DNA from: JAFGIT01 sp016929465 [NCBI: Candidatus Coatesbacteria bacterium]
Lineage (GTDB): Bacteria; B130-G9
Reading direction: 5' to 3'
Assembly (NCBI GenBank): GCA_016929465.1
Contig: JAFGIT010000039.1
Location: 1-24,285 of the forward strand
DNA length: 24,285 bases
Position numbers and translations under genes: made by a program. Numbering within the stretch: position 1 is the first letter of the stretch; each line of letters begins with the position of its first letter. Below are positions 4,286 through 19,191 of this stretch, one piece after another. The notes below the pieces were generated by a model that made no database searches, had not been told where the DNA came from, and was given only the letters and a program-made list of their open reading frames with translations.

Positions 4286-6475
4286 CTATCTTAGCTCGAA
4301 CCTCTCCTGCTCGATGTCCCCAATCAGCTCCCCGTTTCCAGAGTCTATCAGCGCTCCCAGGAATGAATACTCACCCAGCGGCATTTCAGGAGAAATGTCC
4401 ATCCAGAAGACCGGATAGAAATAGCACCTGGCATGACTGTAAATCCTATGATCAGTGATGATTGGGGATGCTGTCGGAGCGAGATCCGGCAGGAACAACA
4501 GCGAGCCATCTGGCCCTGCAAGGGCAATATAAGCATCGACAAAGGCATCCATCCCGCGGTTGCATAGGTCTCCGTAGAGCACCAGCTCCTCACCTCTGAC
4601 ATACGATGGTTTCTCCGTTCTGAGACAAACACGCGGCAGGCCATCTCCCGGCTCCTCCACAAGACGCGAAAGCCCCTTCTTCGTAGCGATCCATTTGGCC
4701 CCGGCCGCATCGATCCCAATATCATACACTGTCCCGTTGCAGAGCCCATCAAGCCCATGATACGAGACGAAATCAATGCCATCGAATCGGCTTACTCCAA
4801 GTCCAGTCCCAAGCCAGAATATCCCGTCTGACGCTTGCTCTATTGTGCTTACGAAGTTGAAGGCTAGACCGTCCCTCGGGCGGTAGTATCTGAATCCCTG
4901 GCCGTCGAAGAGCGTCAAGCCAAAAACCGATCCGAACAGCCATTTGCCATCCGCAGCGAATTTGATCTCGAACACAAGGTTGTCCAACAAGCCATCATCC
5001 ATGTAATACGAGGCGAACTCTCCGTCCGAGAACCTAGTCACCCCAAAGGCGGTCCCGAACCAAACCGCGCCAGTCGGACCGAATTCGATGTCGAATATGC
5101 AGTCATTGCTGAGACCATCCAGAGCAGTGTAACTCGTCCATCGATCCCCATCGAGCCGGCTTGCGCCGAACCGGGTCCCCGCCCAGACCTCAGCGTCCGG
5201 GCTCTCCGCAAGGCAGAGAACGAGATTGTCTGCTAGGCCATCCACAATGGTGAACCACTCGAAGCCTCCGTCCCCAAGACGCCCGATCCCGCCGGCAGTG
5301 CCGACCCAGATAGAACCAATCTGCGAGACTATTACGTCATGCACCAAGGTGTTCTTCATTCCCTCTTCGACCCCATACCAATACTTACCGCCATCCGTAT
5401 CCATCCTGCAGATGCCATTCTTTGTTCCAAGCCATTTGCCGCCGGTGGCATCGATCTCGATCGCCTTCACATTTTGTTGCTCGAGCCCATCCTCTACCAG
5501 AAGATGCGTAAAACTCGTGCCGTCATACACGCAAAGCCCGCCATCCGTCGTCCCTATCCATGCTCGACCGTCATCGTCGATCGCGACAGAAGAAACATCA
5601 TTGCCCGGGAGACCGTCGGCGGTGCTAAAACTCTGCCAGTTCCCATTCTGGCGAATTGACACTCCATCTCGGGTCCCAAACCAGCTCCGACCGAATCGGT
5701 CGCAGTAGATCATCTTCACCTTGGGATTCGGGATGTAATAGCGCGAGCGATAGGTCGTGCTTCCCCTGTCGTCGAGAAGAGTCAGTCCATAGAGCGTCCC
5801 GAACCACTTCTCCCCATCGAGAGCGGCGCCGACCGCAAAGACGCAATTATCACCGAGGCCATCGAAGAGCCTGAATTTGGTCCAATCCTGTCCGTCGAAA
5901 CTGCCAACTCCGCCCTGATAGGTGCCGAACCAGACGACTCCCTTGTTATCCACCGCGATCGAAGTCACCCAGTTGCCTGCAAGGCCGTGGTCCGTCGTAT
6001 ATGTCCTCCAGCTGCCGCCATCGAGAACGGAAGCCCCATTCGTAGTGCCTGCCCAGATACGACCCTCCTTGTCCTGGGTGACCGAATAAATCCAATCCGA
6101 ACCGAGCTCATCGCGCGAGCCCGAAATCCAGAAATACCTGCCGTCATACCGGGCTAGCCCCCAGCCACCGGTCCCGATCCAAAGATCCCCATCATCGGCA
6201 AGCCAAAGAGACTTGATGAAGTTGCACGGGAGCCCATCTGTCGTGCGAAATATACGATAGCTGAAATCATGCCTCGACCAACGAACAAGCCCCCCCGAAG
6301 TGCCCGCCCAGACATATTCCCCGCCCGCGACCAGGCAATTTACGATGTTCGGATTGGTCCAGCTCTCGAACTCAGCCGCTCTGGCGACACGCGCAGGCGA
6401 CAACATAAGCAAGAGGATTAGATAGCAAAACAGCCCGACCAAAGAGGCACTCGATTTGCTGACTCTGACCCTCAA
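4286..6475 (-). CDS. Secreted two-component-regulator-type propeller protein with 14 repeats, no kinase
   Basis: The product is about 729 residues. From the TTG at 6475 it begins MRVRVSKSS, followed by a hydrophobic core ending in SPARVARA, a good signal peptide. An AGGGAG at 6482-6487 sits 6 bases before this TTG. The longer ATG start at 6589 would add about 38 unlikely residues, so I rejected it. The mature part contains fourteen copies of the W-x-G-T-x-x-G repeat (WAGTSGG, WIGTGGW, WAGTTNG and so on), commonly followed by a DGL linker. Fourteen repeats fit two seven-bladed beta-propellers, as in hybrid two-component sensor ectodomains. The last ~115 residues look like an Ig-like domain. 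No transmembrane helix or histidine-kinase region follows. It is a probable exported binding or scaffold protein; the ligand is unknown. Confidence 0.85.
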   Translation of the reverse strand: MRVRVSKSSASLVGLFCYLILLLMLSPARVARAAEFESWTNPNIVNCLVAGGEYVWAGTSGGLVRWSRHDFSYRIFRTTDGLPCNFIKSLWLADDGDLWIGTGGWGLARYDGRYFWISGSRDELGSDWIYSVTQDKEGRIWAGTTNGASVLDGGSWRTYTTDHGLAGNWVTSIAVDNKGVVWFGTYQGGVGSFDGQDWTKFRLFDGLGDNCVFAVGAALDGEKWFGTLYGLTLLDDRGSTTYRSRYYIPNPKVKMIYCDRFGRSWFGTRDGVSIRQNGNWQSFSTADGLPGNDVSSVAIDDDGRAWIGTTDGGLCVYDGTSFTHLLVEDGLEQQNVKAIEIDATGGKWLGTKNGICRMDTDGGKYWYGVEEGMKNTLVHDVIVSQIGSIWVGTAGGIGRLGDGGFEWFTIVDGLADNLVLCLAESPDAEVWAGTRFGASRLDGDRWTSYTALDGLSNDCIFDIEFGPTGAVWFGTAFGVTRFSDGEFASYYMDDGLLDNLVFEIKFAADGKWLFGSVFGLTLFDGQGFRYYRPRDGLAFNFVSTIEQASDGIFWLGTGLGVSRFDGIDFVSYHGLDGLCNGTVYDIGIDAAGAKWIATKKGLSRLVEEPGDGLPRVCLRTEKPSYVRGEELVLYGDLCNRGMDAFVDAYIALAGPDGSLLFLPDLAPTASPIITDHRIYSHARCYFYPVFWMDISPEMPLGEYSFLGALIDSGNGELIGDIEQERFELR

Positions 6476-6481
6476 AAGTCG

Positions 6482-6487
6482 CTCCCT
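6482..6487 (-). promoter_or_regulatory. Ribosome binding site deciding a TTG start
   Basis: AGGGAG on the minus strand, 6 bases before the TTG at 6475. It supports this start over the distant ATG at 6589 because it places the signal peptide at the N-terminus. Confidence 0.65.
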
Positions 6488-6680
6488 ATCAATGCGCCTT
6501 GTCGAAGCGCATACAAAATCATGTTGCAACGGCGCTCCCGCGACCAAAACCTTCGCCTGTGCTGGCCGCAAGGCCAGTTGGCTATTCAATAAATGAAGTA
6601 CATACGGTCAGGGCCATAACATCAAGCCCAAACCGTCTCTCGGATGACACCTTCTGCCGAATGCGGCCACAGTCGCCAAT

Positions 6681-9269
6681 CTATAGCGGTGCGCTCTCCG
6701 AAATGTCAAAGGAGACGCTCGCGTCGGAGATATGATCGCCTGTAGATGCGTCCAAAAGCTCCGCAAACAGATTGTATCGCCCCGCTGGCAGCGAGTCGGA
6801 GACAGGAAGCTCGCAGAAGATGTATGGCCCAAACTTGAAATCAGTCACCAGCGAGAGGTCGAATGTGGTCTTGGAGGCAGCATAGTCGGGGTAGAAGAGC
6901 CTCGTTCCGTCTGGCAGCTCGACGCCAAACGCGGCCTTGACCTGTCTTGCAGGCCCCCTGTTCTCCACCACGACCGCCGCTCGCAGCATCTGTCCCTGGC
7001 GATAGGCCGTTCGATTGGCCCAGATATCAATGAATGGAGCGTATTCGTTCATCACGGTCACTGTCATAGGTGTTGACCATCTGGATACCGCCTTCCGCGA
7101 GTCCCTGGCCGATGCTCGCAGATAATATCTGCCGATTTCCGATGAAGACCAGCTCTGAGAGCCTGCCGACCATTCCGAGGTCGTCCCGTCCGGCCATTGA
7201 AGCCTGAATTCCAGACCATCTCCGTCGGGATCGGTCGCCGTTGAGGAGAAGCTCAGAAACTCCCCGGGCTGCGCTGTCTGCCAATCGGCGATAACGGTCG
7301 GCTCCTGCGGATAATGGTTGGCCAGCAGGCTATTCATGAGAACCGACAATCCCTCGCGAGTCGCCATCCAGCAGTTGTCCAGAAAATCAAACGCGACGCG
7401 ATTTATCCAATTGGAGGAGATGCTGGATGTGTCAGTATCGAGCGTTATCCAACCCTCACCATCAAAGACCGAGACGCCGCTTCTCAGGATCCCAAACCAG
7501 TACTTGCCCTGGGCATCTCTTGTCAAAGTCCTGATCTCGTCGGAGGCCAATCCGCAATTCGCTGTCGTGAGCGTTTCGAAACTCTCGCCATCGAAGTGAA
7601 GCAAAGAGGCATTATCATTGCTCCAATCGCTAGCGATCCACATTTCCCAGTTGTCCTCGATCATAATCGCGCCGATCTTCTTCCAGGGCAGCGGGCTATT
7701 CTCCGGGTTAAAGATCGCGTGGTTGACACCGTCGAAATAGAGAAGGCCGAATCTGTACCCGAACCACTTCCCTCCGTCGGGGTCCTCCGCAAAGCACTTC
7801 GGCCCAGGCCTAACATATAGGCCGAAGTCGTGGGCCTTCCAGTCGACTCCATCGAAACTGGTTATCACTAAATGCTCGATGCCTGATGCATCCTCTGCTG
7901 CACCGTGGCAGAACCACTTAACGTTCTCGCTATCAACTGCGGCAAAAAAGATGTCGTCCCACCAGGGGGTGGGTAACGTAGCTGGGTCTCTGGTGTGATC
8001 GCTCCAGATATTGTTGTCAACGGAGTATATGCCATTCGAGGTGCCTAACCAGAGCACTCCATCCTGATCGATAACGACAGTGCGGGTCAGACCGCTGATC
8101 GGGCTGTTCTCTGGTGTATAAGTCAGCCAGGCATTCGTTGAATAATCGTAGTTAGTGATAACCCCATAGCTGTTGTGATAGATCATCCACATTGATGCGT
8201 TCATCACCCCGCCCGGGGGGAGCATCGCCAACTGCGTGATGTAGAGCGCCGCGGGGCCCGAAAAGGTTATGTCCGTCACATTCCAGTCCTGTCCGTCGAA
8301 TGAGAAGAGGCCATGCGCATCCGTCCCCACCCATAGCACGCCATCGGCATCGAAGCAGATCGACGTGATCGCGCCGTCGGCCTCTCCAGGCAACGGCGAG
8401 TTCGCTGCGCTATATTCGAACCAATCTATGCCGTCGAAACGCTGGAGCGTCCAGTTTGTCGCGAACCATAGGTTACCATCGTGATCGGTGGCTATCTGAA
8501 GAACCCCTGAACGGGCCTCGGTATATGTGGTCCAGACCCCATCAAGGAGTCTCGATGCTCCTCTTCCTGCACCGAACCCTCCGCAAAACCACACGCCGCC
8601 ATCCGCATCCACGCCAATTGGGCCCACATTGTCGGTATGGAGTCCGCTGTTCTCCGTGGTGTAGTGTTCCCAGTTCTGTCCATCGAAGCTGTAAACCCCG
8701 ATAGCAAGATTGTCAGGCGGGTAGTTGTGCGTCGAAAACCACTTCGTGTTGTTCTGATCGACCTCGACAGACTCCAAATATCGGGTCTCGAGCGGTGAGT
8801 TGGCCGGTTCGAACGTCGTCCACCCATGCTCGTCAAGGCATAGGACCCCCGCGTAAGTGGTAAGCCACTTAACTCCGTCGTGATCGATGGCGAGGTCCTG
8901 CGCCTGCGGCCTATCCCCCTGCAGTCCTTCCGGAGGCGGAGGCACGGAGATCCAGTTTGTGCCGACGAACTCCGCCAGATCTGAGGACTGGCCTACCGCC
9001 CAGAGGGAACCATCATCGCCGATGGAAATGTCAGTCGCATGTAGTTCGACGAGGCCCTCCGCGCGCGTGTATTGAGTCAACTTTCCGGTGGGCTTGTCGA
9101 GTGCGACTACCCCACCCTCAGTGCCAATCCATATTGTCGAGGAACTGGCACATAATGAGGTGATATTGCCGGCATAGACAAAATTCCGCCACTCATCTGC
9201 CCTGGCCAACACGCCAAAGCTGGCAATAAATATGAACACAACGAAAGACGCGAAAATCCGAGTATACAT
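6681..9269 (-). CDS. Secreted propeller-repeat protein with PKD-like and Ig-like tail
   Basis: This 862-residue protein starts at an ATG with GGGAGGTG at 9275-9282, a strong ribosome site. Residues 1-24 form a signal peptide (hydrophobic FVVFIFIASFGVLA, then ARADEW). I count fourteen propeller units, for example WIGTEGG, WVGTDAHG, WLGTSNG, WFGYRFG and WMATREG, more degenerate than in the neighbouring paralogue. After the repeats comes a domain of about 90 residues with TDPDGDGLEF and W-S rich strands, resembling PKD or cadherin-like folds. The last ~110 residues repeat the tail architecture of the downstream paralogue (ENRG, then LPDGTRLFYPDY). There is no membrane anchor or kinase. It lies upstream of its paralogue in the same direction with a gap of about 205 bp, suggesting tandem duplication and divergence. 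Confidence 0.85.
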   Translation of the reverse strand: MYTRIFASFVVFIFIASFGVLARADEWRNFVYAGNITSLCASSSTIWIGTEGGVVALDKPTGKLTQYTRAEGLVELHATDISIGDDGSLWAVGQSSDLAEFVGTNWISVPPPPEGLQGDRPQAQDLAIDHDGVKWLTTYAGVLCLDEHGWTTFEPANSPLETRYLESVEVDQNNTKWFSTHNYPPDNLAIGVYSFDGQNWEHYTTENSGLHTDNVGPIGVDADGGVWFCGGFGAGRGASRLLDGVWTTYTEARSGVLQIATDHDGNLWFATNWTLQRFDGIDWFEYSAANSPLPGEADGAITSICFDADGVLWVGTDAHGLFSFDGQDWNVTDITFSGPAALYITQLAMLPPGGVMNASMWMIYHNSYGVITNYDYSTNAWLTYTPENSPISGLTRTVVIDQDGVLWLGTSNGIYSVDNNIWSDHTRDPATLPTPWWDDIFFAAVDSENVKWFCHGAAEDASGIEHLVITSFDGVDWKAHDFGLYVRPGPKCFAEDPDGGKWFGYRFGLLYFDGVNHAIFNPENSPLPWKKIGAIMIEDNWEMWIASDWSNDNASLLHFDGESFETLTTANCGLASDEIRTLTRDAQGKYWFGILRSGVSVFDGEGWITLDTDTSSISSNWINRVAFDFLDNCWMATREGLSVLMNSLLANHYPQEPTVIADWQTAQPGEFLSFSSTATDPDGDGLEFRLQWPDGTTSEWSAGSQSWSSSEIGRYYLRASARDSRKAVSRWSTPMTVTVMNEYAPFIDIWANRTAYRQGQMLRAAVVVENRGPARQVKAAFGVELPDGTRLFYPDYAASKTTFDLSLVTDFKFGPYIFCELPVSDSLPAGRYNLFAELLDASTGDHISDASVSFDISESAPL

Positions 9270-9995: not shown

Positions 9996-11291
9996 ATGAT
10001 GCTGTTGGAAGAGGTTGAGCTCATCTTCATTCTCAGCGTACTTCTCTTGGTCGGCTACGCGTTTGGAGTCTTGGCCAAGAAAGTGAAGCTGCCGGAGGTC
10101 ACCGGCTATATCGGAGCCGGGATAATTCTCAAACAGTTCATCTTCGGCTTGGATATGATGTCAGAAGCCCAATTCAAGAGGCTTTTCTCTCTCGATCTCG
10201 TCCCAATCAACCATCTTGCGCTTGCACTGATCGCATTCGCGGTGTGCGGTGGCCTTCGAATCGAGCAAATGAAGCGTCTGGGGAAAGGCATTATTTATAT
10301 AGCTTTCGTTCAGGCATTCGCGACTTTTGTCATCGTGGCGATTGGAATCTCTATCATAGCGCCCTTCGCTGATGTCGAAGGGATCCCCTCCGGCAAGATC
10401 CTCGCCGCTATGCCGCTTGCACTCGTTCTTGGAGGGATAGCGACTGCCACGGCACCGGCAGCAACAGTAGCCGTTATTCGTGAGCTCAGGGCGAAAGGAC
10501 CTTTCACCACCACGCTCCTTGCAACCGTCGCCATCGACGATGCTATCGCACTTCTCATTTTTGCATTCGGACTCACAATCGCGGAGGGATTGCTGACTGC
10601 TGGAGCGTCAGCCGGCGCTGCTAGCAGTGTGTGGATATGGCTCGGACCTCTTCTCGAGGTCGTCGGATCGCTCGTTGTGGGAATGCTGGTCGGCCTAGCA
10701 TTCGATTACATTGCCAAGAAAGTCAGGCATGAAGTCGAGATGATGACCGTGTCCCTTGGAATAATAACCTTCGCAAGCGGATTGTCGATGCTGCTTGGAT
10801 TATCACCCCTCCTGACCATAATGTCCGCCGGCTTCGTGCTAGTAAACCTCTCGCAGAGAAACCAGAGGGTATTCGCATCGGTTGAGGCGATTCAAGGGCC
10901 TATCTTCGTCGTGTTCTTTACCCTCGCTGGCACCCAATTGCATCTTGAAAACCTGATAAGTTGTGGAATCATTGGCTCCGTTTTTCTCGTCTTCCGCTTC
11001 CTCGGGAAGGTCGGAGGGACGTATTTGGGTGCCGTTTTTGCTCGGGTTAGAGGTGCGGCGCGCCGGCATTTGGGCTTTGCGCTGCTTCCGCAAGCGGGCG
11101 TCGCAATCGGCTTGATGCTGGTGGCTCAGGAGAGCCCGCACTTTCTCGTTCACAAGTCGATCCTGGTTGATGTTGTCCTTGCCTCGGTCGCCTTGAATGA
11201 ACTGCTTGGACCTCCTCTCGCGGCCCACGCGCTGAGAAAGTCCGGGGAAGTGCCCGCATCGAGACCCGTCGCGACATCGAGAGCGAAATAG
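9996..11291 (+). CDS. Cation:proton antiporter, CPA2-like, first copy
   Basis: This is an integral membrane protein of 431 residues with about twelve hydrophobic segments and no cytoplasmic nucleotide-binding (RCK/TrkA-N) domain. Early signatures are KLPEVTGYIGAGIIL and LALIAFAVCGGLRIEQ. The discontinuous-helix region reads TATAPAATVAVIRELRAKG, and the ion-binding helix carries Asp181-Asp182 in VAIDDAIALLIFAF. Among cation/proton antiporters a DD pair marks electrogenic NapA/NhaA-like members, whereas electroneutral ones have ND; extending this here is inference. The start is an ATG preceded by AAGAAAGG with somewhat long spacing; the next codon but none lower, an ATG at 9999, is an alternative. 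It is followed after 14 bp by a paralogue. Substrate (Na+, K+ or other) cannot be decided. Confidence 0.85.
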   Translation: MMLLEEVELIFILSVLLLVGYAFGVLAKKVKLPEVTGYIGAGIILKQFIFGLDMMSEAQFKRLFSLDLVPINHLALALIAFAVCGGLRIEQMKRLGKGIIYIAFVQAFATFVIVAIGISIIAPFADVEGIPSGKILAAMPLALVLGGIATATAPAATVAVIRELRAKGPFTTTLLATVAIDDAIALLIFAFGLTIAEGLLTAGASAGAASSVWIWLGPLLEVVGSLVVGMLVGLAFDYIAKKVRHEVEMMTVSLGIITFASGLSMLLGLSPLLTIMSAGFVLVNLSQRNQRVFASVEAIQGPIFVVFFTLAGTQLHLENLISCGIIGSVFLVFRFLGKVGGTYLGAVFARVRGAARRHLGFALLPQAGVAIGLMLVAQESPHFLVHKSILVDVVLASVALNELLGPPLAAHALRKSGEVPASRPVATSRAK

Positions 11292-11305
11292 ATGGAGAAT
11301 TTACT

Positions 11306-12574
11306 GTGATCCCAATAGGGGCCGACCTTGTCTTTCTCATAGGCGCAATACTCACGATAGCGTATATCGGAGGTCGCGTCTCGAATCGACTCAAGCTGCC
11401 CGAAGTGACGGGGTATCTGTTCGCCGGAATCCTCCTGAAGGCCGCAATCACATGGATAGGCGTCATACCCCCAGAACGCTTCGATATGCTCCTTACGGAG
11501 CATTTAGGGCAGATACCTCAGATAACACTCGCAATGATCGCCTTCGTAATCGGAGGGAGTCTCCCGATTGAGCAGCTCAAACGGCTAGGGAGGGGCATTG
11601 CCTGGATCGGTCTTACAGAGGGATTCGGGGCCTTTGTAATGGTCGGCGTCTTGACCTATCTGCTCGCCCCGTTTGTTTGGTCCATGCCCATAGTCGAGGG
11701 GGTGACTCCAACCGAACACATCCTGGCGTTTGCTCTATTGCTCGGGGCCCTTTCATCGGCTACCGCCCCCGCAGCCACGGTCGCTGTAATTCGAGAGCTC
11801 CGCGCAAAGGGTGACGTTACCACCACCTTACTGGGTGTAGTCGGGCTCGATGATGCTGTGGCCCTGTTCATTTTCACCTTCGCAAGCGCTATCGCCTCTG
11901 GGCTGCTCGCCGGGGCAGAACAAGCATCTGTAGGTGTGATAAGCACTCTCGTTGTTCCGCTTATCGATGTCCTCGGCTCTGCAATCCTCGGTACCGCGAT
12001 GGGATTCTTGGCCCACTATGGCTCTCGGCTCTTCAGGAGCAAGCGAGAGACCATAGTTGGCGGCCTGGGATTCGTCTTGCTATCGGGCGGCATCGCTGTC
12101 GCATTTGGCCTATCACCGCTTTTCACAAATATGTTGGCCGGATTCACTCTCATTAACCTCTCCGCCCGAAATATGCGATTCTTCCGCTCCCTGGAAGATA
12201 TAGAAGCGCCCATTTACGCAGTGTTCTTCGCGCTTGCGGGAACTCACCTGGCCTTTGAGGACCTGGGGACACTCGGCGCTCTATCGGCAATCTATATATT
12301 GGCAAGGCTGGGTGGAAAGGTCTTTGGCGTCAAGATCGGTGCCAAGCTGGGAGGTGCCTCTCAGACTGTAAGCAAATATCTGGGATTGGGACTCGTCCCA
12401 CAGGCAGGCGTGGCCATTGGCCTCGTGCTCCTGGTGAAGGACAATCCAGCATTTGCTTCATTCGCGCCAGTGATGACCAATATCATACTTGGTACGGTGG
12501 CGGTCAACGAGATCATAGGGCCGCCCTTTACAGCCTATGCTCTCAGAAAGGCCGGTGAGACGCATTCTCCATGA
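11306..12574 (+). CDS. Cation:proton antiporter, CPA2-like, second copy
   Basis: This is a 422-residue paralogue of the upstream gene. It shares KLPEVTGYLFAGILLK, LAMIAFVIGGSLPIEQLKRLG, TAPAATVAVIRELRAKG and GLDDAVALFIFTF, with the ion-binding pair at Asp182-Asp183. Later shared segments include GLSPL, AGFTLINLS and GLVPQAGVAIGL. It also lacks a cytoplasmic regulatory domain. It starts with GTG at 11306, with TGGAG 8 bases upstream. The pair may form a heterodimer, since CPA antiporters are normally dimeric; this is inference from tandem arrangement and equal length. A gap of about 146 bp to the EIIA gene contains a short candidate frame. Confidence 0.85.
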   Translation: MIPIGADLVFLIGAILTIAYIGGRVSNRLKLPEVTGYLFAGILLKAAITWIGVIPPERFDMLLTEHLGQIPQITLAMIAFVIGGSLPIEQLKRLGRGIAWIGLTEGFGAFVMVGVLTYLLAPFVWSMPIVEGVTPTEHILAFALLLGALSSATAPAATVAVIRELRAKGDVTTTLLGVVGLDDAVALFIFTFASAIASGLLAGAEQASVGVISTLVVPLIDVLGSAILGTAMGFLAHYGSRLFRSKRETIVGGLGFVLLSGGIAVAFGLSPLFTNMLAGFTLINLSARNMRFFRSLEDIEAPIYAVFFALAGTHLAFEDLGTLGALSAIYILARLGGKVFGVKIGAKLGGASQTVSKYLGLGLVPQAGVAIGLVLLVKDNPAFASFAPVMTNIILGTVAVNEIIGPPFTAYALRKAGETHSP

Positions 12575-12635
12575 CCGGACAGACATGTCTTGAACCGAGA
12601 GATGCTCAGTGTCTAGTATGATGAAAGGGGTGGAG

Positions 12636-12728
12636 ATGAATAGCCTGGAGTATGTCACCGGCGCCATGTCTATCGGCGGGTGTTTGTGGCCCAATTCAAT
12701 ATTAGACAGAGAGGTAGCCTATGGTTGA
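12636..12728 (+). CDS. Possible 30-residue small protein overlapping the EIIA start
   Basis: A short frame begins at the ATG at 12636, preceded by AAAGGGG with 5-base spacing, a better ribosome site than many genes here. It ends with a TGA inside the first codons of the EIIA gene, an 8-bp overlap typical of translational coupling. The peptide reads MNSLEYVTGAMSIGGCLWPN followed by ten more residues and resembles nothing I know. It might be a leader or coupling peptide, a true small protein, or chance. Two in-frame ATGs just upstream (12618 and 12621) lack a ribosome site. Confidence 0.25.
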   Translation: MNSLEYVTGAMSIGGCLWPNSILDREVAYG

Positions 12729-13185
12729 ACTGACGTCATTTATGAAGGGAAAAATCGTGTGTCTCGATCTCAAGTCGGAGACCAAGGCCGACATGTTTGA
12801 GGAGATGTCTGATCTAATCTCACATTCAGAATTCGTTCCGGACCGAAGGGAATTCCTCGACGCGCTGAAGGAACGCGAGGCCGTGATGGTAACAAGTCTC
12901 GGTGATGGTGTTGGCATCCCCCACGCGAGATGCGATTCGATACAACAACTTGTCATCGCGGTCGGCATATCACGAAAGGGAATAGACTTCGGAGCGAAGG
13001 ACGACCCCGCAGTCCGGATAGTCTTCATGTTTGGAATTCCCACTCAGGAAACCAAGCTCTACATTCAAGTGCTCGCCAAGATATCGAGATTCGCGAGAAA
13101 GAAGGAAAACCGAGAGCGGCTGCTTTCAGCCAGGTCCGCAGACGAGATTTTCGCTGCTTTTGAGGAATTCGATGCGAATTCGTAA
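12721..13185 (+). CDS. Stand-alone PTS EIIA domain protein (fructose/nitrogen type)
   Basis: This 154-residue protein matches the PTS EIIA type-2 domain. Residues 59-69 carry SLGDGVGIPHA, in which His68 is the expected phosphorylated histidine. Preceding features (DALKEREAVMVTS) and the following strand (RIVFMFGIPTQETKLYIQVLAKISR) fit the family. No EIIB or EIIC sugar-permease genes are present, so a regulatory rather than sugar-uptake role is likely, as with EIIA-Ntr, which in enterobacteria binds potassium transport components. Its position directly after two cation antiporters supports an ion-transport role, but this is inference. GAGAGGT a few bases upstream serves as ribosome site. No EI or HPr gene is visible in the window. 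Confidence 0.88.
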   Translation: MVELTSFMKGKIVCLDLKSETKADMFEEMSDLISHSEFVPDRREFLDALKEREAVMVTSLGDGVGIPHARCDSIQQLVIAVGISRKGIDFGAKDDPAVRIVFMFGIPTQETKLYIQVLAKISRFARKKENRERLLSARSADEIFAAFEEFDANS

Positions 13186-13230
13186 CTTGTTTCATTGTAA
13201 GACGAGTCCTTTGTATTCAGAGGGATTGAG

Positions 13231-13563
13231 ATGCAGCTTGTCATTGTAGTTCTCTATAGGGAAGAGCAACTTGACGATATTCTCTCGGTATTCGCCGAGC
13301 TCGGGCTGGAGAACACCATAGTCATCGAGGGGACGAGAATGCAGGAAGTTCTGGCCTTCGATGTCCCGATTTTCGCGGGGCTTGCGGCTGGCTCGCTCGG
13401 CGGGAAAAGGTATGTGAAGATCTTGATGTCCACGTGCCCAGAAGAGGGAATCAGCAGACAAATCGCCAAAGTAGCTAAAGACTTCGACATAGATTTTTCG
13501 AATAGAGACGTAGGTGAAATACTAACTCTGCCGCTAAAGGAGCTCGTAACGGCAGAAGACTAG
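13231..13563 (+). CDS. Small P-II-like protein
   Basis: This 110-residue protein begins MQLVIVVLYREEQLDDILSV and contains ELGLENTIVIEGTRMQEVLA, then DVPIFAGL and a C-terminal LPLKEL. The alternation of a first strand ending in a Leu/Arg-Glu segment, a helix, a Gly-Leu turn, a second strand with TVIEG-like residues and a final strand is that of the ferredoxin-like P-II (GlnB) superfamily. It lacks the tyrosine-bearing T-loop of classical GlnB. Similar small P-II-like proteins are known to act with membrane transporters. It lies 45 bp after the EIIA gene and 7 bp before the hybrid kinase, with GAGGG about 6 bases before the ATG. The fold call is from pattern recognition and needs a profile search; the ligand is unknown. 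Confidence 0.6.
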   Translation: MQLVIVVLYREEQLDDILSVFAELGLENTIVIEGTRMQEVLAFDVPIFAGLAAGSLGGKRYVKILMSTCPEEGISRQIAKVAKDFDIDFSNRDVGEILTLPLKELVTAED

Positions 13564-13570
13564 CTCAAAT

Positions 13571-16500
13571 ATGGATGAGGGAAGCGATGATGATGGTGAA
13601 ATGACTGTCGTACTTGGCTTTCTAATCTCATTCACAACTTGGGTCTTCCCATTACTTGCGCTTGCGCTTTTCTCGTATGCTCTCGCTCTGAACTCCAAGG
13701 AGAGCACGGGAGCAGTTCATCTTTTCTTCGCGGCCTTCGCCGCATTCTGCCGAAATTTGCTCATACTGATCGACTTCGGCACTCGCTCTCCTTTTGCGGC
13801 GCCTCACTACCGCCTTTTCTTGGACCTACTTCTTCTGCTGGCCATGACCCTTGCTGTGATGGGATCATCCACCCTCCTTTCCGTGCAGGGAATATCTATA
13901 AGCTCCAGATACAAGCGGACCATGATTGGCGTTGCGCTGTGTTTCTGGTTGACAGCAGCCATCTCGGGTATCGTCGGCGAATCCTCCGCGGTAGAGGTTC
14001 TTCACTATGCAGTGTATGATTGCGCGGTCGTCTGTTTGGCATGGGCCTACCTCGTCATAGGCGTTGTCGCCGCCCATCACTTCGGCAGAATCGGTACGAT
14101 TGCGCTCCGTCTGGCCAAGACCGCGGCATTCATCATCTTGATCCACCCCCTTAACAGGATGTTCTTCTTCCGAGCATCTACGATCCCAAGGGGTATTGAA
14201 TGGTGGCTTCTTGACCTCTTCCTGCTCGGATCCAGCACAATGCTGTGTGGCGCTGCGGTGGTACTCATTGCGCGCGGCGCGCGGCGCGTAGAGCTCAAAA
14301 CACTCCTCAAAACGGACGTGAGGGCTCAGAAGGTGGTCTCGAAGCGATCGTTCGCCTTCATCGGACTGGGCGTCATCGTCGCAGTCATATTATCTCTCTT
14401 GCTGATCCAGAGGTCTGGAGAAGAACTGACTTCTGCAGTAACGAGAGAACTGCAGAATCGACATCTATCAGAATTGATGGGAATCGGCTCTAGAGTCCAG
14501 GACGCATCAAGGGGGCTCAGGTCGTGTATGGCGGCAATGTCCGAAGTATACAGCAAAAACGCCGTAGCCCCATTGCGTGAAGATCGTGTTTTTGACGTTT
14601 TCCTCAAAATTGCGAATGACCACATGCCGTGCAACATCTTGATCGCGACGCCTGAAGGGGAATTGATAAAGACCGATGCATCGAATGAGTTGGCTGAGGC
14701 CTTTCTGGACAAAGCCGGCCTGGCATTCGAAACATCCGACCCCGTGTCCGAAGAGAAAGGAGATGTGCTCGGACCGAAATTCATCTTCTTTGATGAGTCT
14801 GCAAATGGTCTCTTCGCCTTCTGCACCACGATTTTCCTTCCAAACGGCCCGGACGGCTCTCGCCCACTAAGGGTCTATCTGCTTGCCTCAACAAGGACCA
14901 TAACCAGCAGATACTTCAGTGGAATGGAGGGTGAACCGGTCTCAGTTTGCCTTATGAGCGAGCGTGGGGATATCGTTCTCTCCACTGCTACCAAACTCGT
15001 CTCCCGCAATATCGGTGAGATACTGTGTCCCGATTCTCCTGAGAGGAGGCAGGGCATGCTAACGGAGATAATCCGGCACAATCCCGGTTACAGAGTCCAC
15101 AAAGCTGCTGAAGCACCTCTTCTGCTTTCATATTGCTCTATACATATTAATGGGAGCGCTTTCTACCCGATCGCAATAGCTCCATGGGATATCGTCTTAG
15201 CCTCGATTGACTCTGCATACCTGAAGCAATACCAACTGCTCGGATTCATCATGGTCCTAATTCTATTTGGGAGCATTATCGCGGTATATATCTCGACCAG
15301 GTGGAGCAGGTCGCTCGAGAGAATCGCCCTCGAGAAGACTGATCAACTGAGGCATGAAAAAACTAACCTCGAACAGGCAATGCGGAGCATAGGAAAGCCC
15401 CTGATCGTAGTAAATGAGAATCTGGATATTACCTATGCGAATACTGAATTCATCGCAGCGTTCAGCGAACCGCTGGGGAAGAAGTGCCACGAAGTGATCT
15501 ATTGCCGTAGTTCGAAATGTGAGAACTGCCTTGCGGAGATGTCGATTCAGGGAGATGAAGTATGTCATGCAGTGAGACTTGAGGAAGAAGGTCCCGAAGC
15601 TCGATGCTTCGACATCACCGCAAGCCCGAAGAAGGATCTTGAAGGGAATGTCATCGGCTCCATCATTCTCCTGAGCGACGTTACAGAGAGAAATACATAC
15701 GAGCGGCGCATACGCGAATCCGAGGAGAAGTACAAACGCCTTGTCGAGACGTCGCCGGATATGGTCTGTATTATTCAATCCGGACGGCTGCTATACGCCA
15801 ACAAGGTGCTGATCGAGAAGATGGGCTTCTCCCCAAAAGATCTATTCGCCGATGAATTCGAGCTCGTCGCTAATATCGTGCACAGAGACTGGCGGGAAGA
15901 TGCGTCGCGCTTCCTTGACGACTTGAGAGGGAGCAAATTGCCTAAGGAAATGGAGCTTCCACTGGTCACCAAAGGTGGCCAGGAACTCCAGGTGCTCTTC
16001 AGAGGAGTGCCAATAACCTACGGCGGCCTCGAAGCGATCGAGGTGATATTCGTTGATATAACCAAGCTAAAGGAGCTTCACAGGCAGCTGCTGCAGGCGG
16101 AACGCCTCGCATCGCTCGGAGAGCTCACTGCATCCATAGCCCACGAGTTAAACAATAAACTCACTCCAATACTGGCCTACTCAGAGATGCTTCAAAACAG
16201 AATCGAGGATCATGCCATCGCGGAGAGATTGGCCTATATCGAAAGGTGCGCCAAGGGGGCCAAGTCTGTCGTCGAGACGCTTCTCGCGTTTCCGAGAAAT
16301 ACCACGTCAATGAGGAAGAGCATCAATCTCAACCGACTATTGGTGGACACTCTCCAACTTGTCAAATATCGCCTGGATGCCTGCAACATCGACCTCCTCA
16401 CTGAACTCGATGAAGACCTTCCTAGCACGATGGTCGATCCAAAGCAGATCGAACAAGTCTTCCTGAATATCGTCAACAACGCATATCAGGCCATGGAGGA

Positions 16501-17203
16501 GAGAGGCGGCACCCTGTATATCGTCTCGAACGTCCACGGCGATAGGATTGTAATCCAGATAACGGACACCGGGGCCGGCATCTCCGAGGCTGATCTTGGA
16601 CGCATCTTCGAGCCATTCTTCACAACAAAGCCTGCGGGGAAGGGAACGGGACTCGGCCTGCCATGCTCGCTCGGCATCATCAACGCGCACGATGGGGAAC
16701 TCAGGTGCACCAGCAAGCTCGGAAGGGGAACCACGTTCGAAATCGATCTGCCGGTTGTAAGACGCCAGACTGAGGAAGAACCCGAATTAATACAAGCTGA
16801 TGATCTGCTGCTAGAAAGCGATGTCGCGGGCGCAAAAATCCTCGTTGTGGACGACGAGGAGATGCTGCGCGGGATGGTCAATGAGATACTCTCTCTAGAC
16901 CACACTGTCCTGCTCGCGGGCGACGGCAGGGAAGCGATCGACCTCTTGAAGAAGGAAGCGATCGAGATGATCGTCACTGATCTACGTATGCCTGGATTGG
17001 ATGGATTTGCGCTCTACAACTGGGTCAAGGAGAATAAACCCGGACTGGAAAGACGCATGCTATTCACGACTGGCGATATATATGAGCCCAGAACCAGAGA
17101 ATTTATGAGGCGCGGCGGGATCAGATGCATATCGAAACCATTCTCGGTCAGCGCCTTCATGAATCAGGTCAATTCAGTTCTGGCCGACTCGAATCCCATC
17201 TGA
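13571..17203 (+). CDS. Hybrid histidine kinase: multi-TM N-terminus, extracytoplasmic sensor, two PAS, HisKA, HATPase, REC
   Basis: The protein has 1210 residues. Seven hydrophobic segments occupy about 12-235, an eighth about 256-278. An extracytoplasmic, probably Cache-like region spans about 280-555, followed by a membrane segment (about 556-576). PAS 1 (about 600-718) contains Cys639, Cys645, Cys650 and Cys653. PAS 2 spans about 719-838. The dimerisation box IAHELNN carries phospho-acceptor His858. The ATPase part shows FLNIVNNAYQAM, DTGAGIS, IFEPFFTTK and GKGTGLGL (about residue 1023). The C-terminal receiver has VVDDEE, phospho-acceptor Asp1137 in VTDLRMPGLDG, and a conserved Lys in SKPF. 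It starts 7 bp after the P-II-like gene. The ribosome site of the ATG at 13571 is poor and the acidic first ten residues (MDEGSDDDGE) are odd; the ATG at 13601 is an alternative. No separate output regulator follows. Confidence 0.9.
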   Translation: MDEGSDDDGEMTVVLGFLISFTTWVFPLLALALFSYALALNSKESTGAVHLFFAAFAAFCRNLLILIDFGTRSPFAAPHYRLFLDLLLLLAMTLAVMGSSTLLSVQGISISSRYKRTMIGVALCFWLTAAISGIVGESSAVEVLHYAVYDCAVVCLAWAYLVIGVVAAHHFGRIGTIALRLAKTAAFIILIHPLNRMFFFRASTIPRGIEWWLLDLFLLGSSTMLCGAAVVLIARGARRVELKTLLKTDVRAQKVVSKRSFAFIGLGVIVAVILSLLLIQRSGEELTSAVTRELQNRHLSELMGIGSRVQDASRGLRSCMAAMSEVYSKNAVAPLREDRVFDVFLKIANDHMPCNILIATPEGELIKTDASNELAEAFLDKAGLAFETSDPVSEEKGDVLGPKFIFFDESANGLFAFCTTIFLPNGPDGSRPLRVYLLASTRTITSRYFSGMEGEPVSVCLMSERGDIVLSTATKLVSRNIGEILCPDSPERRQGMLTEIIRHNPGYRVHKAAEAPLLLSYCSIHINGSAFYPIAIAPWDIVLASIDSAYLKQYQLLGFIMVLILFGSIIAVYISTRWSRSLERIALEKTDQLRHEKTNLEQAMRSIGKPLIVVNENLDITYANTEFIAAFSEPLGKKCHEVIYCRSSKCENCLAEMSIQGDEVCHAVRLEEEGPEARCFDITASPKKDLEGNVIGSIILLSDVTERNTYERRIRESEEKYKRLVETSPDMVCIIQSGRLLYANKVLIEKMGFSPKDLFADEFELVANIVHRDWREDASRFLDDLRGSKLPKEMELPLVTKGGQELQVLFRGVPITYGGLEAIEVIFVDITKLKELHRQLLQAERLASLGELTASIAHELNNKLTPILAYSEMLQNRIEDHAIAERLAYIERCAKGAKSVVETLLAFPRNTTSMRKSINLNRLLVDTLQLVKYRLDACNIDLLTELDEDLPSTMVDPKQIEQVFLNIVNNAYQAMEERGGTLYIVSNVHGDRIVIQITDTGAGISEADLGRIFEPFFTTKPAGKGTGLGLPCSLGIINAHDGELRCTSKLGRGTTFEIDLPVVRRQTEEEPELIQADDLLLESDVAGAKILVVDDEEMLRGMVNEILSLDHTVLLAGDGREAIDLLKKEAIEMIVTDLRMPGLDGFALYNWVKENKPGLERRMLFTTGDIYEPRTREFMRRGGIRCISKPFSVSAFMNQVNSVLADSNPI

Positions 17204-17261: not shown

Positions 17262-17849
17262 CTACAGGTCCTCGGCGATGTTCGCCTTGTGGTCTCTGTA
17301 AAGCTGTGACACCGAGTTATACGCCATCAGGTATCGATTGAGCTCGCTCCCACACAGCAGCTCATCACCGTCCATGCAGCCAACGAACTCGCTCCGCTCG
17401 CGCTTCTTCAACTCCTCGTATCGATGCTCGGCAAGCTTCATGTGCATCATAAGATATGAAACCGAATCCCTGGCTCTCTGGAAATACGATTCGCGATATT
17501 GGGCGATCTCCTCAACGCTTTCCCGATAGAAGTTGGTGATGAAGCTCTCCTCCTCCTCGATAAGCCGACCGTGCTTGTGCGCGAAGTAACCCGCACGGGA
17601 TTCATCGAGTAGAATATCGAGATGCTCGAGGAAGTCTAACTCATCCTGAGATGGCGCCCGGAAGAACATCAAAGACCGCTCAGAATTGGCGTATGCGCGT
17701 TTGAGGTAGTAGATGATGTTGACCGGGTTCTCGCCCATTCTAGCGAAAATCGCATCCAGGTCGCCCGTCTCCAGGAGAGACCTCGCCCTGTCATAATAGG
17801 CATCGCGACGCCCAAACAGCGGCGCCTTATTATTGTCAATCTTTACCAT
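17262..17849 (-). CDS. Unrecognised helical protein, 195 aa
   Basis: I do not recognise this family. The product is soluble, without signal peptide or membrane segment, and strongly charged. From about residue 85 it is rich in Glu, Arg, Lys and Tyr with long helical stretches such as LIEEEESFITNFYRESVEEI and a following YRESYFQRARDSVSYL. That suggests a helical bundle or coiled coil. Two cysteines sit close together near the C-terminus (GCMDGDELLCGSELN). Base composition and codon use look like the neighbours, and the frame is uninterrupted. A weak GAGAAGAG precedes the ATG. It is convergent with the hybrid kinase (58 bp gap), so it is not part of that operon. It is probably a real gene on length and composition; function open. 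Confidence 0.65.
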   Translation of the reverse strand: MVKIDNNKAPLFGRRDAYYDRARSLLETGDLDAIFARMGENPVNIIYYLKRAYANSERSLMFFRAPSQDELDFLEHLDILLDESRAGYFAHKHGRLIEEEESFITNFYRESVEEIAQYRESYFQRARDSVSYLMMHMKLAEHRYEELKKRERSEFVGCMDGDELLCGSELNRYLMAYNSVSQLYRDHKANIAEDL

Positions 17850-18515: not shown

Positions 18516-19076
18516 CTAGGTGTTCTCTTTCGCATTTCCCCGCAGAAAGTCCTTCTTCTTCTTGAGGTCCTCATCATTCATTTGGGCTGAAGCCTGCGGC
18601 GAACCTCCCTGCTGCATATCGATCTTACCTATCACGCGGCCACCTTCATCGATCTTGACGCTCTTCGCGACTATCTCGCCCTCAATCGTGCCCGTCGTCT
18701 TCAGTTCGAATAGCTGCCTCGCCTCCGTCCGGCCCTTGATACGGCCGCTAATGGAAACGTTCTCTGCCGATACGTCCGCCTCGACAAGACCTGACTCTGC
18801 GACGATCAGATCGCTCTGGATATTGATCTTGCCCTGGACGGTTCCGTGCACGATGACTGCTTTGTTGCTCTTAACCTCGCCAATGAGCACGGTTCCCTCT
18901 GCAATAATCGATTCTCCCGCTGCGTCCCCAGACGGAGACTGCTTTCTCGTGTTCACTTTGTCATTCCCCTTGATTATGGGTTTCGGTTCCGGTTTGAGTA
19001 CCGTGGGCGCGAGGTTATCTTGCTTTGGCGTTTCCTGAACCGGCTGCGCCTTATTGTCCTTACTGAAAAAGCCCAT
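18516..19076 (-). CDS. Bactofilin family cytoskeletal protein
   Basis: This 186-residue protein has a disordered, Pro/Lys-rich N-terminus (about 1-50), a central beta-helical bactofilin domain (about 55-150) and a short charged tail. The domain shows the typical six-residue hydrophobic periodicity: SIIAEGTVLIGEVKSNKAVI, then VHGTVQGKI, AESGLVEADV, ISGRIKG and TGTIEGEIVAKSVKIDEGGRV. Bactofilins (DUF583) polymerise without nucleotide and act as scaffolds for cell shape, polar positioning or cell-wall enzymes. No M23 peptidase or other usual partner is adjacent. AGGAG lies 6 bases upstream of the ATG at 19076; an out-of-frame ATG overlaps it. A tRNA gene lies 39 bp upstream on the same strand. 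Confidence 0.9.
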   Translation of the reverse strand: MGFFSKDNKAQPVQETPKQDNLAPTVLKPEPKPIIKGNDKVNTRKQSPSGDAAGESIIAEGTVLIGEVKSNKAVIVHGTVQGKINIQSDLIVAESGLVEADVSAENVSISGRIKGRTEARQLFELKTTGTIEGEIVAKSVKIDEGGRVIGKIDMQQGGSPQASAQMNDEDLKKKKDFLRGNAKENT

Positions 19077-19115: not shown

Positions 19116-19191
19116 TGGAGCGGGCAACGGGGCTCGAACCCGCGACATCAAGCTTGGGAAGCTTGCACTCTACCAGCTGAGTTATGCCCGC
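19116..19191 (-). tRNA. tRNA-Gly (anticodon CCC)
   Basis: The complement strand folds as a complete tRNA. The acceptor stem is GCGGGCA (19185-19191 complemented) with TGCCCGC (19120-19126 complemented). A D arm with ACTC/GAGT, an anticodon stem CAAGC/GCTTG and a TTCGAGC T-loop closed by GCGGG/CCCGT follow. The seven-base anticodon loop TTCCCAA gives anticodon CCC (19156-19158). The discriminator is T, and the 3' CCA is encoded in the genome (19116-19118 complemented). It lies upstream of the bactofilin gene in the same direction. Confidence 0.95.

Follow-up and report, generated by a model that had tools for sequence, protein, structure and literature searches.

What sets the activity of a cation/proton antiporter without a built-in control domain? 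The question is raised by a block of five plus-strand genes at positions 9996–17203 of JAFGIT010000039.1, one whole contig of 24,285 bases (hereafter, the window) from the draft genome (3.19 Mb, 86% complete) of a Candidatus Coatesbacteria bacterium. In gene order, with gaps of 14, 146, 45, and 7 bases, the block encodes two cation/proton antiporters (CPA), A and B, an EIIA domain protein of the phosphotransferase system (PTS), a small P-II-like protein, and a membrane-bound hybrid histidine kinase; the five genes named in a preliminary description of this DNA were all found where it had placed them. We propose, with a probability of about 0.6, that a PTS relay lacking a sugar permease and a P-II-like sensor gate the antiporters from the cytoplasm, with EIIA and the P-II-like protein acting as their regulators in trans.

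Conservation and linkage of the module

The five genes occur in identical order in all four genomes examined of the host's phylum (Coatesbacteria-like), including one (G003) in which antiporter A is interrupted by the contig end. The proteins of these relatives are 71–75% (antiporter A), 70–71% (antiporter B), 70–81% (EIIA), 68–71% (P-II-like), and 54–58% (kinase) identical to those of the window. A related contig filed as Candidatus Coatesbacteria (QMNL01000027.1, antiporter B 70% identical) and contig C27 of genome G001 were counted once, as their match coordinates nearly coincide.

To look beyond the phylum, a profile built from its four P-II-like proteins was run on 386 genomes and matched 56 of them, 52 of the 382 outside the phylum at 59 places. 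All 59 outside places were analysed, reading 8 kb on either side or to the contig end, with open reading frames (ORFs) taken from a simple stop-to-stop caller instead of a gene finder, and iterated profiles of the four proteins were then run on these neighbourhoods. One place (L104, E 9.6e-4), without a hit to these profiles, was dropped and a second P-II-like gene was added at another (L062), again giving 59 P-II-like genes, which fall in 40 families, a few being close pairs.

An EIIA partner accompanies 41 of these 59 genes, as a separate gene on the same strand within 1.5 kb in 32 and fused to the P-II-like protein in one ORF in nine. A CPA gene lies within 2.5 kb of 37 (one in 26, two in 11, none in the remaining 22), and the full trio, with a separate EIIA within 1.5 kb and a CPA within 2.5 kb, is found for 23. 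Seven of the nine EIIA–P-II fusions have a CPA next door and the other two lie at contig ends. Under random placement, an estimate that ignores operon clustering and shared ancestry, 0.16 of the 59 genes would be expected with a separate EIIA and 0.17 with a CPA. The neighbourhood check suggested in the preliminary description therefore came out in its favour, since antiporter, EIIA, and P-II-like genes are found together in many families much more often than chance would allow; the twin antiporter that it described is present in all four phylum genomes but is not universal, as the 11 outside genes with two CPAs indicate.

The coding-strand order of the 23 full trios is EIIA–CPA–P-II in 10, EIIA–P-II–CPA–CPA in nine, CPA–EIIA–P-II in three, and P-II–CPA–EIIA in one. 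With four gene orders among these trios, the linkage has outlived rearrangement, and a linkage kept despite rearrangement and fusion is what functional coupling predicts.

Transporters other than CPAs also occur near the P-II-like genes. EIIA and P-II-like genes are followed by MnhE and MrpF, with CPA absent, at L073 (Pfam), and by similar Mrp-type genes (by eye), beside a divergent MgtE, at L077. At L065, a P-II-like gene without an EIIA partner precedes MnhE and, two genes on, MnhG. A CLC channel is present in the neighbourhoods of L074 and L084 without being adjacent. A plasmid search with one P-II-like relative (from L066) as query found two places, both unannotated, one in Subdoligranulum variabile (discussed below) and one in Acetoanaerobium noterae, where the upstream neighbour of the P-II-like gene is a putative permease (by eye, from its first residues). 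In viral contigs, 91 stretches matched a pattern, none of them a P-II-like relative.

EIIA and a relay without a sugar permease

The EIIA gene (12721–13185, plus strand) encodes a 154-aa protein of the fructose/Ntr type, in which the PTS_EIIA_2 match (PF00359, E 7.3e-33) spans residues 8–149. Its phospho-acceptor, His68, lies in the IPHAR motif (GVGIPHAR) and is invariant across the four phylum sequences, as previously noted for the window protein. Across the loci, this His is kept in 45 of 47 EIIA rows, being Asn in L087 and lost with one row at a contig end. The protein scores 91.5 bits against the NCBIfam model for fructose IIA (TIGR00848, cut-off 103.5) and 69.1 bits against the strict PtsN equivalog (TIGR01419, cut-off 138.7), TIGR00848 being the closer of the two. 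By analogy, the window EIIA would work like PtsN but is not classed as PtsN.

Genes for HPr (C353:788-1027) and EI (C353:1081-1449) stand side by side on contig C353 of the window's genome. No EIIB or EIIC lies within the five-gene block, in agreement with the preliminary description, and no PF02378 EIIC was found in the phylum genomes G000–G003 (G000, the window's own genome, being 86% complete), a search that did not cover EIIB or the mannose-, galactitol-, and ascorbate-class EIIC. Within that range, no EIIC that might have paired with this EIIA was found, and the window's genome has EI and HPr without a cognate PF02378 EIIC, as in a PTS-Ntr-like relay. The same pattern extends to the 56 genomes with a P-II-like gene: EI is present in 51, HPr in 50 (49 over the cut-off), and EIIA in at least 53, with a PF02378 EIIC in a single genome.

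The window's genome holds five EIIA domains in all, and each of the three inspected is tied to a transporter gene. Contig C269 (L105:4255-6126) encodes a 623-aa CPA–EIIA fusion with EIIA as its C-terminal part, and contig C71 (L106:994-3222) an EIIA–CBS–CBS protein located between a CBS-like protein and an ArsB/NhaD-like permease (both flanks by eye). In a separate observation, an EIIA with two N-terminal CBS domains (L048:8536-9510) shows a weak, sub-threshold match (E 0.0019) to PF07565, the band 3 cytoplasmic domain, a part of eukaryotic anion exchangers.

The P-II-like protein

The 110-aa P-II-like protein (13231–13563, plus strand) has no Pfam or NCBIfam match above the cut-off, PF00543 (P-II) included, and its relationship to P-II is only seen at the family level. 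An alignment of 47 of the 63 family rows, from which the nine fused, near-duplicate, and some divergent rows were excluded, was used for two comparisons: Pfam P-II is hit at E≤1 by 29 of these 47 (best 7.7e-11), and a profile of the family finds solved P-II chains in the PDB with E 2.2e-4. Around helix 1 and strand 2, the P-II signature is retained in the family (consensus L.D.LS...E.GI..ATI.DS.GMG), as is the C-terminal one (DF..PG.G..FT.PV), both stretches aligning with P-II chains.

Canonical P-II proteins (GlnB/GlnK) have a T-loop with a modified Tyr and an ATP-binding GDGK segment. At the T-loop position, the family instead has the conserved segment [DE][IV]P[IL]FAG[LF], with Pro46 in 58 and Phe48 in 61 of the 63 rows, and in place of GDGK the window protein has D-V-G-E, the commonest version across the family being G-T-G-I. 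The window protein thus neither reaches the PF00543 cut-off nor has the T-loop Tyr and GDGK, and on sequence grounds it is classed as P-II-like, not as P-II. The preliminary description was right about the small gene, and its P-II-like reading is supported through the family comparison only.

An AlphaFold2 model of the window protein, built from two sequences, has a mean pLDDT of 62.5, so the matches to its fold give weak support. The best 50 of the 829 Foldseek hits at E≤10 are all P-II-superfamily chains, none of them significant (best E 0.017), and VIA-align with this low-confidence model retrieves SbtB, CPII, PotN, and GlnK (Z 6.9), with elongation factors and eIF4E at similar Z.

A canonical nitrogen P-II was also considered; since PF00543 is above the cut-off only in G003 of the four phylum genomes, no GlnB/GlnK is detected in the window's own genome. 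As for the ligand, the diadenylate cyclase (DAC) that would point to c-di-AMP is found in 51 of the 56 genomes with a P-II-like gene, compared with 11 of 14 control genomes, and is not detected in G067, G206, G267, G336, and G338. Two of these five, G206 (99% complete) and G336 (100% complete), carry the full module, and therefore c-di-AMP cannot be the general ligand, although it may be one in individual lineages. Only four of the 47 family members match DarA, weakly (best E 0.0041).

The antiporters

Antiporters A (9996–11291, plus strand, 431 aa, CPA2-like) and B (11306–12574, plus strand, 422 aa) are tandem paralogues with about 42–44% identity, and both have Na_H_Exchanger (PF00999; E 1.1e-24 and 6.3e-26, respectively) as their sole Pfam match above the cut-off, with no RCK/TrkA domain, as previously proposed. 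They end 31 (A) and 22 (B) residues past the last hydrophobic segment, and these short C-terminal tails do not contain the RCK domain of KefC-type antiporters. In a motif alignment, both have D181-D182 in transmembrane segment 5 (TM5) and K338 in TM10. In electrogenic CPA2 proteins, according to PMC6181914, motif positions 6 and 7 in TM5 hold Asp and position 8 in TM10 holds Lys, and this DD..K motif predicts electrogenic CPA2-type exchange in A and B. Their scores against the NCBIfam CPA2 model TIGR00932 (38.7 and 36.6 bits) lie far below its cut-off of 238.3.

In a tree drawn with a midpoint root, A and B are sister clades (support 98/94), and the tandem pair therefore arose within or near the phylum; L093 has another lineage-specific pair (100/99). 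A different arrangement appears at 10 twin loci (L049, L052, L056, L079, L081, L082, L083, L087, L089, and L091), all of which place one antiporter in a single clade of 10 rows with 100/100 support. In that clade, the first TM5 Asp is replaced by Lys (seven), Gly (two), or Ser (one), and the TM10 Lys is lost in all 10. The partners sit outside the clade, in a tree with some long branches, and eight of the 10 are without the DD motif, which those of L089 and L091 keep. Judging from these residues, the twin antiporters of these lineages look like an obligate pair of unlike subunits in which the charge of the ion site has been relocated.

The hybrid kinase

The last gene of the block (13571–17203, plus strand) encodes the 1210-aa membrane hybrid kinase described previously: PAS-PAS-HisKA-HATPase-REC by Pfam, with HisKA, HATPase, and receiver in one chain, and nine hydrophobic segments by hydropathy, eight in the first 280 residues and one more after ~555. 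The region ~280–555 is likely extracytoplasmic. Its place in the block in all four phylum genomes would fit an arrangement in which the kinase is the target of EIIA and the P-II-like protein, much as KdpD is of PtsN, and in turn controls antiporter transcription with no direct gating; in several proteobacteria, PtsN binds KdpD (PMC13104625). Outside the phylum, however, the sensor half finds no match in the loci at E≤1e-3, and the catalytic half matches only generic kinases (L056, L076, L084, and L085). Moreover, the hybrid kinase that adjoins the module at L056 is another one, which has TPR repeats and is read divergently, and the CPA–EIIA fusion needs no kinase. We therefore consider kinase control very unlikely as the explanation of the module. 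The kinase was rejected as a core part of it, against its inclusion in the preliminary description; judging from the analysed loci, this phylum has added it to the block.

Relation to known systems

The P-II-fold proteins GlnK (on AmtB) and SbtB (on SbtA) dock on and gate membrane transporters (PDB entries 2ns1 and 8zor). The module resembles them in its small protein of putative P-II fold, for which docking on a transporter is here proposed. It differs in its presumed target, a cation/proton antiporter, in the replacement of the T-loop and GDGK, and in having EIIA as another partner, to which the P-II-like protein is fused in some lineages. The c-di-AMP receptor PstA/DarA has a P-II-like fold and a link to potassium biology, which would be shared here; by contrast, c-di-AMP is not the general ligand in the module, and the DarA match is weak and confined to the four members mentioned above.

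On the EIIA side, unphosphorylated PtsN of E. coli binds and inhibits the K+/H+ antiporter YcgO, and phosphorylation weakens the binding (PMC11808508). As in that pair, the module combines an EIIA_2 domain with a phospho-acceptor His, a cation/proton antiporter as its proposed target, and a putative relay without sugar transport. Unlike in PtsN–YcgO, the window antiporters share a gene block with their EIIA and a P-II-like partner is present. YcgO belongs to CPA1 and is predicted to carry RCK and CorC domains itself, CorC being the proposed PtsN contact (PMC11808508), and the window antiporters have neither. KefC-type CPA antiporters, in which RCK domains provide cytoplasmic sensing (PMC11808508), would share the principle of such control, with the difference that the proposed control parts are separate proteins here.

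Mechanism and alternatives

We infer the contact, ligand, sign of control, transported ion, phosphorylation, and role of the kinase along the following lines. The block would be an ion-homeostasis operon under post-translational control. Phosphate from PEP would pass through EI and HPr, encoded elsewhere in the genome, to His68 of EIIA, and, with such PEP-driven phosphorylation, EIIA would therefore report the carbon/energy state. A second cytoplasmic signal would be reported by the P-II-like protein, presumably a trimer, whose ligand would most likely be an adenine nucleotide or a related compound. Singly or as one complex, EIIA and the P-II-like protein would bind the antiporters from the cytoplasmic side and control how active they are, a task that RCK or CBS domains perform in other antiporters; if PtsN–YcgO is a guide, unphosphorylated EIIA would be inhibitory. 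In this phylum only, the kinase would add an external input, probably via transcription. The assignment of a PEP-dependent input to EIIA, a ligand-dependent input to the P-II-like protein, and the role of shared target to the antiporter follows from the encoding of both regulators with a short antiporter without its own control domain, together with the PtsN–YcgO, GlnK–AmtB, and SbtB–SbtA precedents.

The idea that EIIA and the P-II-like protein are trans partners of the antiporters, already put forward in the preliminary description, is partly supported: it agrees with the co-occurrence and with the lack of a paired PF02378 EIIC, and it is strengthened by the EIIA–P-II fusions and by the CPA–EIIA fusion in the same genome. 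What has to be given up is the kinase as part of the wider module and the twin antiporter as a universal feature.

Several observations weigh against our proposal. CorC, the proposed contact in the E. coli precedent, is absent from the window antiporters, and the window protein is assigned to P-II only indirectly (pLDDT 62.5, with unrelated ferredoxin-like folds ranked equally by VIA-align). One profile place (L104) was not confirmed by the iterated profiles, and three of the 56 genomes with a P-II-like gene are without any EIIA among the matches listed. Among the 59 outside genes, EIIA and P-II-like genes occur without a CPA in nine, two of them beside Mrp genes, and a CPA without an EIIA in view in seven, four of which (L047, L050, L075, and L080) are at contig ends. 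These two groups bear on the possibility that the P-II-like protein acts on the EIIA/PTS relay, through EIIA phosphorylation or availability, and that EIIA alone touches the transporter. The nine genes with EIIA and no nearby CPA, together with the nine fused ORFs, are what this would lead one to expect, whereas the seven beside a CPA only, and Subdoligranulum variabile, in which the P-II-like gene is directly before a CPA gene and EIIA was not found in the 12 kb examined, are not; on balance, we regard it as unlikely.

EIIA and CPA are both absent from the vicinity of a further 11 of the 59 P-II-like genes, which also tells against a dedicated role. The gene precedes MlaE at L064 and a similar gene at L067 (by eye), and it lies near purL/purQ-like genes at L051 and L066 (by eye). 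Given these 11 genes and the purine-like, MlaE, or other neighbours, the P-II-like family has other jobs too, and its non-antiporter neighbourhoods suggest further targets. Such unrelated neighbours would also suit genes that are merely co-expressed for ion/energy homeostasis, their products having no physical contact. Nevertheless, the two kinds of fusion (EIIA–P-II and CPA–EIIA), the four gene orders, and the re-use with Mrp argue for a shared mechanism, and simple co-expression seems quite unlikely to us. As a side observation, L088, L094, and L095 hold family members with neither EIIA nor CPA.

With direct gating in trans as the preferred reading, a wider one can be formulated, for which we see the chances as evenly balanced. 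It would be a signalling module spread widely among bacteria, in which a PTS without sugar permeases was re-used as a carbon/energy relay. EIIA and its own P-II-like family would form one unit, separate or fused, that plugs into antiporters of the unrelated CPA and Mrp classes and places ion balance under dual metabolic control. The antiporter of one deep branch would have become two dissimilar subunits that depend on each other and whose ion-site charges are rearranged.

Limits and neighbours of the block

The conserved unit appears to equal the five genes: L017 contains no match to the downstream neighbours seen in the window, and L016 none to the upstream one. The downstream neighbours are present in L016 and L018. 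Scans for sigma-70 promoters (seven promoter-like stretches compared with 6.2 expected) and terminators (seven compared with 7.0) were at the level of shuffled sequences, and operon limits therefore cannot be drawn from them.

On the minus strand, two long Reg_prop (two-component-regulator propeller) repeat proteins, with no kinase domain detected, are encoded at 4286–6589 and 6681–9269. A 195-aa protein without a Pfam match (17262–17849, minus) is 79–82% identical in two relatives, a conservation equal to that of the most conserved gene of the module; a bactofilin gene (18516–19076) lies in the same stretch. A tRNA-Gly(ccc) is encoded at 19116–19191 (minus).

Significance

No EIIA/P-II-like/antiporter module and no EIIA–P-II fusion was found described in the titles and abstracts of the best-ranked papers of the open-licence literature, and PII, GlnB, and "fused" do not occur in the main text of a 2026 PTS-Ntr review (PMC13104625). 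Each half has a known precedent; what looks new is that they are combined, how widely the combination occurs, and the fusions. Fused CPA–EIIA proteins may well have been noted before, in subscription PTS genomics papers.

The same review calls the reason for PTS-Ntr control of potassium transport unclear (PMC13104625). The module presents the same kind of PTS–ion coupling as compact clusters in many bacterial families, lacking PF02378 permeases and often accompanied by a P-II-like protein. Should the proposal be confirmed, simple systems of two to four genes would become available for reconstituting, and solving structurally, the coupling of carbon/energy state to ion homeostasis. Cation/proton antiporters would also gain a class of control acting in trans, together with a P-II-like family that has no dedicated Pfam model. 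The module thus points to a little-noticed way of tying ion balance to energy state.

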